Part shown: one piece after another, positions 35,560-36,822 of the stretch
How the letters are laid out: each line of letters begins with the position of its first letter
Position numbering within the stretch: position 1 is the first letter of the stretch
From: Jiangellales bacterium
GTDB lineage: Bacteria; Actinomycetota; Actinomycetes; Jiangellales; Jiangellaceae
Reading direction: 5' to 3'
NCBI GenBank assembly: GCA_030447955.1
Contig: JAUJNY010000001.1
Span: 637,485-701,484, forward strand
DNA length: 64,000 nucleotides
Made by a program: the position numbers and the translations under genes
Notes under the pieces: model-generated
Database searches by the model: none
What the model was told of the DNA's origin: nothing
The model's input: the letters and a program-made list of their open reading frames with translations, nothing else

Positions 35560-35622
35560 GTGAAGATCGTCGGGTAACAGGACCTGGCACCGCTCCCGAG
35601 CCTTCCACCCGACAATCTTCAC
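35560..35622. repeat. Inverted pair of a 16-bp motif upstream of the DUF559 gene
   Basis: GTGAAGATCGTCGGGT at 35560-35575 and ACCCGACAATCTTCAC at 35607-35622 (one mismatch) face each other across 31 nt. They could form a stem-loop. They belong to the same family as the copies found on the other side of the next gene. The stretch between fbiA and the DUF559 gene (35467-35730) holds nothing else that I can recognise. Confidence 0.8.
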
Positions 35623-35730
35623 GACTTGCTGACAGGGACCTTGTCCACAGGAGGGAGGACCGCGAACGGTCGTCCACCCCACTCCCGGGAGGAGCCTGCC
35701 TCGGCGCAACGCTGCGTTCACCGTGGGCGC

Positions 35731-36651
35731 ATGCTCCTCGACGACGACCTGGCCACGCTTGCGCAGCGGCAGGCGGGCTGCTTCCACCGTGACCAAGCCC
35801 TGCAGGTGGGGTTCTCGCGCGCCGCCGTCGAGTCCCGGCTGGCCCGCAGGCTATGGGTGCCGGTGCATCCGCGGGTCTACCGAGCCGCCACCACAAGCGT
35901 CACGCCTGCCACCAAAGGCTTCAGCGCGGGGCTCTACGTCGGCGAGCCTTACGCCTTTGCCTCCGTTACGGGGGCACGGCTGAGGGGCATGGACTCTCTT
36001 CTCGTCGACTCGCGGACGTGGGTAGCGGTACCGCACGAGCGCGTGGTCGCCGGCCGGCCGTCGCTTCGAGTGTGCCGCACCCGGCACTTCTGGCCATGGG
36101 TGCTGGAGGACCGCCACCGCCTGCCTGTCTTCAGTGAGGCGAGGTTGGTCGTCGACCTCGCCCAACTGCTGGACCCTGCCGAGCTGCGTCGACTTGTCTA
36201 CGACCTCATCCGTCGTGACCGGTGCACGCCCGAGGAGATCCTTGCGGCCGCCGAAGGCATGGGGGGACGCGCCGGCCTGGCTGACCTGAGACAGGTCATG
36301 GGCGACTTCGACCCGCTGGCCGAGTCGGCCGCCGAGCAGGAGGCCGACGAGAGGCTTCAGCACGGCGGCATATTCCTCGACCGGCAGGTCGAGTTGTGGG
36401 GTGACTTCGGTCTCGTTGCGCGCTTCGACTTCGCTGACACGACGCTGAAGCTCGCTGTCGAAATCGACGGCGATCGGGACCACTCCAGCGCCCGTCGCGT
36501 GCACCACGACAAGCAACGCGACCGTGCTACGGCTCGTCTCGGGTGGCAGGTCGTGCGCTTCCCGGTGACCTTCGTTCGCCGGCACCCGAGGCAGTTCGTC
36601 CGCGAGGTGCGAGACCTGCTGGACTCCCGCCATCCGCTCCCCGCCGCTTGA
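35731..36651 (+). CDS. DUF559/Vsr-like nuclease-fold protein with AbiEi-like N-terminus
   Basis: 306 residues from ATG 35731. The N-terminal about 60 residues ([30 protein letters not shown]) are the winged-helix-like region seen in AbiEi-type antitoxin/regulator proteins. The middle ([32 protein letters not shown]) is the usual linking domain. The C-terminus has [18 protein letters not shown] and [14 protein letters not shown], the PD-(D/E)xK-like core of DUF559, related to Vsr mismatch endonucleases. The acidic residues D and E-I-D are kept, so catalysis is possible. The substrate is unknown. The gene is flanked on both sides by a repeated 16-bp motif. Confidence 0.8.
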
Positions 36652-36697
36652 CCGACGGCCGTACGCGTTCCAGTTCAGGGCTGGTGCTTTTGGGGTT

Positions 36698-36822
36698 GTG
36701 AAGATCGTCGGGTAGCCCGACCGGCCATCGTCCGGTCGTGAAGATCGTCGGGTAGCGTCGGCCGCCGAGGAGCCACCGCCGTCGGGCGTCGGCCGCCGAG
36801 GAGTCCACCCGACGATCTTCAC
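36698..36822. repeat. Two direct and one inverted copy of the 16-bp motif downstream of the DUF559 gene
   Basis: GTGAAGATCGTCGGGT occurs at 36698-36713 and 36738-36753, and its perfect inverse ACCCGACGATCTTCAC at 36807-36822. The last two form a 16-bp perfect inverted pair. Between them GTCGGCCGCCGAGGAG is itself repeated (36757-36772 and 36789-36804). The region from the DUF559 stop to the next gene (36652-36869) otherwise shows no gene. Confidence 0.8.

Follow-up and report, generated by a model that had tools for sequence, protein, structure and literature searches.

A nuclease-like AbiEi-DUF559 gene and its bracketing palindromes as probable parts of one selfish-repeat system

Why is a gene for a nuclease-like protein bracketed by copies of one short motif in both orientations? 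The question is raised by an AbiEi-DUF559 gene found in the window, that is, the whole stretch of 64,000 nucleotides analysed here. DUF559 proteins occur widely among Actinobacteria, where, to our knowledge, no role has been established for them. We conclude, with a probability of roughly 0.6, that the gene and the palindromes built from the motif, which are REPIN-like, belong together in a single selfish-repeat system whose protein is probably the mobiliser. The components of this reading carry different weights: the partnership of gene and palindromes is very probably real, and mobilisation of the palindromes by the protein, argued from sequence, has slightly better than an even chance.

The locus, its repeated unit and the predicted protein

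The features of the locus, in the coordinates of the window, are the following.

35560..35575, + strand: left arm of the upstream palindromic unit (GTGAAGATCGTCGGGT), an exact match to the motif; the extended arm is CGTGAAGATCGTCGGGT
35607..35622, - strand: right arm of the upstream unit (GTGAAGATTGTCGGGT), with C-to-T at position 9, 47 bp from the left arm start-to-start
35731 (ATG)..36651 (stop), + strand: AbiEi-DUF559 gene, 306 aa, candidate partner nuclease (Pfam, PADLOC, five orthologues)
35731..35892, + strand: N-terminal winged helix, residues 1-54, AbiEi_4-like, candidate DNA reader (Pfam; AlphaFold model)
36313..36630, + strand: C-terminal nuclease domain, residues 195-300, predicted Vsr / EDxHD homing-endonuclease fold (Foldseek; conserved E/D/H/R residues)
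36698..36713, + strand: direct arm 1 of the downstream cluster, motif match
36738..36753, + strand: direct arm 2 of the downstream cluster, motif match, 40 bp after arm 1
36807..36822, - strand: inverted arm of the downstream cluster, motif match

A preliminary description had placed five copies of the 16-mer at 35560 (+), 35607 (-, one mismatch), 36698 (+), 36738 (+) and 36807 (-), and these positions were confirmed, as was the layout, with an inverted pair upstream of the gene and two direct arms plus one inverted arm downstream. It had seen the motif nowhere else in the window; in fact, just three further matches are present there, each with 3 mismatches (8 matches at up to 3 mismatches, against 0.67 in shuffled sequence, with a maximum of 3 in 100 shuffles), but the motif is not private to the locus, since its own genome (G000; 2.27 Mb searched, 82% complete) has the motif 21 times with one mismatch or fewer, the reversed control giving 0. 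Its nearest orthologues, from Phytoactinopolyspora, and tallies by family place this genome in the Jiangellaceae. The actual unit is an inverted pair, GGTCGTGAAGATCGTCGGGTAGC-N~25-CACCCGACAATCTTCACGACC, whose arms are 47-49 bp apart start-to-start and whose loop is variable. The 21 arms form about ten units, with two clusters bracketing the AbiEi-DUF559 gene; all nine units examined in this genome are intergenic, some of them between convergent genes. In the genome search, motif matches in other families of the class were at background level.

Two minor features of arms and spacers were also seen. Within the downstream cluster, the final spacer (36755-36803) contains an 18-bp direct repeat, GCGTCGGCCGCCGAGGAG, with copies 31 bp apart. 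At position 9 of the motif one arm reads CGTC and the other TGTC, always C/T, in 6 of 9 units of G000, so that a single-strand hairpin would have a G-T pair there. A preference for T:G mismatches between the arms, as in Vsr, was considered and rejected, because 46 units from Jiangella (here and below the inferred name for genus g3 of Jiangellaceae) are not enriched in transitions (80 transitions, 155 transversions); the C/T difference is left as a local feature of the units of this genome.

An AbiEi-like winged-helix start and a Vsr/DUF559-fold end had been predicted for the protein, and the profiles, the AlphaFold model and Foldseek agree with this, the putative active-site residues being kept. 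The DUF559 profile (PF04480) gives 28.6 bits, above its curated cut-off of 20.6; for REase_MTES_1575 the protein stays below the cut-off (31.9 against 38.2) and the G005 orthologue reaches 45.8. The match to AbiEi_4 is weak (E 0.01), that to PADLOC AbiEi, in the N-terminal part, has an E of 6.6e-11, and the model has helices and a wing at residues 2-52 with pLDDT 70-81. Its mean pLDDT is 63.5, and trust is therefore limited to the domains. The best Foldseek match of the C-terminal domain is 3r3p, I-Bth0305I (probability 1.00, TM 0.77 of target, E 0.019), followed by 3hrl and 1vsr (E. coli Vsr); no Foldseek match of the model had an E below 0.001. The putative active-site positions that hold acidic residues or histidine (about D233, E244, D246, H251 and D260) are invariant in six orthologues and, in an alignment read by eye, mostly recognisable in distant homologues. 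Residues 152-189 contain a stretch like a single TALE repeat; TALE homology was rejected after a sequence search of solved structures, in which single repeats scored at most 6 bits and the E-value sums over many copies.

The F420 context that had been described was also found, the neighbours being cofE/cofD and a TIGR03557 F420-dependent LLM oxidoreductase. The AbiEi-DUF559 gene is a free-standing ORF between cofD and the oxidoreductase, not in an intron or intein, and its immediate neighbours at the locus include no AbiEii nucleotidyltransferase toxin or other defence gene. No defence-system model spanning the whole protein was matched. Three DUF559 matches occur in the genome, and within their fetched surroundings the motif is present only around the window gene.

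Palindromes beside DUF559 genes in other genomes

Enrichment near DUF559 genes, on which the preliminary description had made its proposal depend, is seen in unrelated genomes against matched controls. A repeat common to both flanks was found at 28 of 40 diverse actinobacterial DUF559 loci, spread over 22 of 29 genomes, compared with 24 of 1000 geometry-matched positions (Fisher 2.6e-31), and was absent at 12 of the 40. This comparison used 19.5-kb regions around the 40 genes, a shared repeat score of at least 16 and control positions arranged identically within those regions. Against the other called genes of these regions the count is 23 of 40 versus 10 of 544, which underestimates the association because gene starts were taken from partial matches, the matched geometry giving the 28 of 40. 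Many loci of a first set of 30 had a long flank repeat whose sequence was private to that genome. A TGATC(A) core is frequent in otherwise unrelated palindromes near distant DUF559 genes from different families (flanks of L128, L141, L142, L154, L155 and L123).

Orthologues of the window protein occur in five relatives at 40-44% identity. Each of their genes has flanking arrays of its own, made of related repeats that contain GTCGTG and lie densely on one side or both. In G005, exact arms CGGTCGTGAAGATCGTCG lie across many contigs (at least 50 among the matches listed), and no exact arm was found in its congener G008, which has no orthologue; at up to 3 mismatches there are 279 matches in G005 and 121 in G008. 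At 20 sampled sites plus the gene locus of G005, all 22 inverted pairs have a distance of exactly 52 bp and tandem arms recur every 40-42 bp, and the 40-bp step between the downstream direct arms of the window is the period of these tandem arrays. In G004 (L179-L194) most arms are in direct orientation, at distances that are 52 and 70 bp in turn (a period of 122), in contrast to the 40/52 pattern seen in G005.

Counts of dispersal across whole genomes cover a few repeat families; for G010, G012 and G014 the observations cover the flanking arrays. In G099, of the Mycobacteriaceae (an inferred name for family f4), the palindrome that flanks the gene, CGAGCAGACGCARAA, occurs as 185 arms, most of them in pairs at 43 bp, with 0-1 in the control; there are 9 to 34 arms in three congeners and none in other genera. 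For the Jiangella palindrome GATCATGGAGAAGGTC, the species G006, G015 and G016 have 92, 98 and 59 arms respectively, with a pairing distance of 39 bp and a control count of 0; several other species of the genus have few arms or none.

Matching of palindromes with proteins, and changes at orthologous sites

With one Jiangella protein as query two clades were recovered, the sister clade at 44-47% identity. Genes of the L141 clade adjoin TTGATCATGGAG palindromes and sister-clade genes adjoin TTGATCTTGGAG, even within one genome. Co-variation of motif and protein, as proposed beforehand, is present overall (Mantel r 0.49, p 0.001) but not within clade A (p 0.17), the signal being due to the split between the two clades; moreover, gene and flanks are inherited together, so that a correlation of protein and arm distances is support rather than proof. 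Copy number was compared for the family-B arms of Jiangella: species with the B gene have 57-207 arms in six of seven cases and 6 in the seventh (G011), and the five species without it have 113, 33, 28, 3 and 0. The medians are 113 with the gene and 28 without, G015 being the exception, with 98 and 113 arms of two families and no close gene; about 30 family-B arms are also present in each of G006 and G020, which lack a B gene. The many arms without a gene in these three species imply that copies persist after loss of the gene or move in its absence.

Orthologous loci with and without the gene, whose comparison the preliminary description had also put forward, differ between Jiangella species by inversion and loss of the gene cassette. 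The cassette, composed of gene and palindromes, is found at several loci in the genus and in both orientations, and at the locus of the G006 gene it is inverted relative to the flanks in G002 compared with G006. At this locus G015 has no gene and half an arm left, which reads as gene loss with repeats surviving, and in G019 the gene is replaced by a palindrome from the other family. A second intergenic site was compared by alignment of nine species and by reading the sequence of three more; here a full palindrome is present in 1 of 12 Jiangella (G013), beyond an ordinary terminator; the other species are without the full unit, the closest relative in the set (G020) having a short remnant, and those without the palindrome keep the ordinary terminator. 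These site comparisons indicate that palindromes are gained or lost singly and that the cassette with the gene can be turned round or disappear. A target-site duplication was seen neither at the units of the own genome nor at the G013 site.

Known systems and rival explanations

The locus had been likened to the REP/RAYT arrangement with a different enzyme, and the likeness holds for the flank association, the dispersal, the clade-specific palindromes, the lack of a Y1 transposase, and site gain and loss. As in REPIN/RAYT systems, there are intergenic inverted doublets of fixed spacing and variable loop in many copies, and the gene is bracketed by its own repeats (PMC3116915, PMC2817692, PMC3733652); clade-specific repeats, lone survivors after gene loss and IS insertions in the repeat are also shared. 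REPIN doublet geometry recurs, at 47-49 bp here, 52 bp in G005, 39 bp in Jiangella and 43 bp in G099, and the repeats are, like REPs, dispersed, extragenic and palindromic. In the place of the partner, however, stands an AbiEi-DUF559 protein from the Vsr/PD-(D/E)XK group, whereas RAYT is an HUH tyrosine transposase, and single arms are not small hairpins themselves as REPs are. No match to the Y1 HUH transposase (RAYT, PF01797) was found in the own genome and 22 relatives, while control genomes do match. The GTAG/CGTC tag at the foot of the stem-loop is absent in the Jiangella and G099 arms as read by eye; the G000 arm contains GTAG and CGTC strings, not at the foot of the stem. The system would thus fall outside REP/RAYT on its enzyme and appears to behave like REP/RAYT in what was checked.

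Other systems share single traits with the locus. CGTC-tagged REPs, which are reported to be without a dedicated transposase (PMC3733652), are likewise dispersed palindromes lacking a RAYT, but they are described mainly from alphaproteobacteria, are tagged small hairpins and have no known partner gene. The EDxHD homing endonuclease I-Bth0305I and Vsr resemble the C-terminal domain in predicted fold; unlike EDxHD homing endonucleases, the gene described here has no group I intron or intein, has an AbiEi-type winged helix in front and is linked to palindromes rather than to the insertion site of an intron. The AbiE type IV toxin-antitoxin system shares the N-terminal AbiEi-like domain, but here the AbiEii toxin partner is missing and a nuclease domain follows the winged helix. 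As to features of IS elements and MITEs, there is one gene copy in the own genome and the cassette is at several Jiangella loci. A DUF559 Vsr-like protein of Caulobacter has been described, with palindromes unmentioned (PMC12907096). The literature searched, whose coverage is incomplete, yielded no report linking DUF559 proteins with palindromic repeats or mobile elements, and a search with the motif sequences found no relevant paper.

In the reading that we prefer, the palindromes would be short, non-autonomous intergenic elements that form a REPIN-like population, and the AbiEi-DUF559 protein would be their dedicated, usually single-copy partner, its own gene bracketed by copies. The winged helix most likely reads the arm sequence, the Vsr/homing-endonuclease-like domain would nick or cut the palindrome, either as duplex or as extruded hairpin, and host repair or replication restarts would then copy the element to new intergenic sites, possibly by a hairpin nick or cut followed by repair synthesis or strand transfer. 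We infer palindrome binding, cleavage by the protein and the driving of copying by this cleavage. Bracketed Vsr-like genes in many Actinobacteria, with their repeats scattered through each of the genomes counted, suggest a kind of selfish repeat system that has gone unrecognised. It is an even bet that AbiEi-DUF559 proteins form a second, independently evolved repeat-mobilising class, of Vsr/homing-endonuclease type and Actinomycetota-wide, perhaps including the partners of RAYT-less REPs. If so, a large gene family of 'unknown function' and a large class of intergenic repeats would be explained together, partnerships of the REPIN/RAYT type would have more than one origin, with enzymes that are unrelated, and the spread of RAYT-less REPs would become a testable question.

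The same winged helix could instead belong to a regulator or chromosome organiser that binds the palindromes as operators or nucleoid sites, the flanking copies serving autoregulation and the repeats having spread otherwise. AbiEi antitoxins bind inverted repeats in their own promoters, and the upstream palindrome is near the gene start both in the window and at Jiangella loci; yet repeats also lie directly downstream of the stop, where an operator does not need them, the putative active-site residues of the nuclease domain are kept across distant homologues, and the origin of tens of copies is left unexplained, for which reasons we consider this alternative unlikely. A defence nuclease, AbiE- or restriction-like, with the palindromes as self-recognition sites, decoys or regulatory sites, would fit the PADLOC AbiEi profiles matching the N-terminal part and the occurrence of Vsr-fold nucleases in defence systems. 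It is quite improbable, since F420 genes rather than an AbiEii toxin or defence gene adjoin the locus, no defence model covers the whole protein, and intergenic dispersal of fixed-length units is not expected of it.

Mobility of a more classical sort, namely an IS-like transposon with the palindromes as ends and the dispersed copies as solo ends or MITEs, would account for a gene bracketed by whole palindromes, for the Jiangella cassette at several loci in both orientations and for the G019 site without the gene. We judge it improbable: the own genome has one gene copy against ten or more palindrome units, palindromes far outnumber genes in G099 and Jiangella, and the arm pairs are of fixed length, with no gene remnants and no target-site duplication seen. 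Rare movement of the cassette and a REPIN-like life are compatible. That the palindromes are terminators or intergenic insertion hot spots where DUF559 genes merely land is hardly credible; the units are indeed intergenic, some of them convergent, and IS elements do insert in palindrome loops, but other genes of the same regions are bracketed in just 10 of 544, each protein clade has its own palindrome, and empty-site species keep an ordinary terminator without one.

The IS elements inside palindrome loops carry IS110 and ISL3 transposases in G099 and an rve (IS30-like) transposase in Jiangella, at the following sites.

L305, G099:C1:900627-902329: IS-in-loop site
L306, G099:C1:2924349-2926042: IS-in-loop site
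L230, G017:C3:671996-673199: IS-in-loop site

REPs are known targets of IS110, and these palindromes may therefore be targets too. Several more arm pairs about 1.68 kb apart are present in G099.
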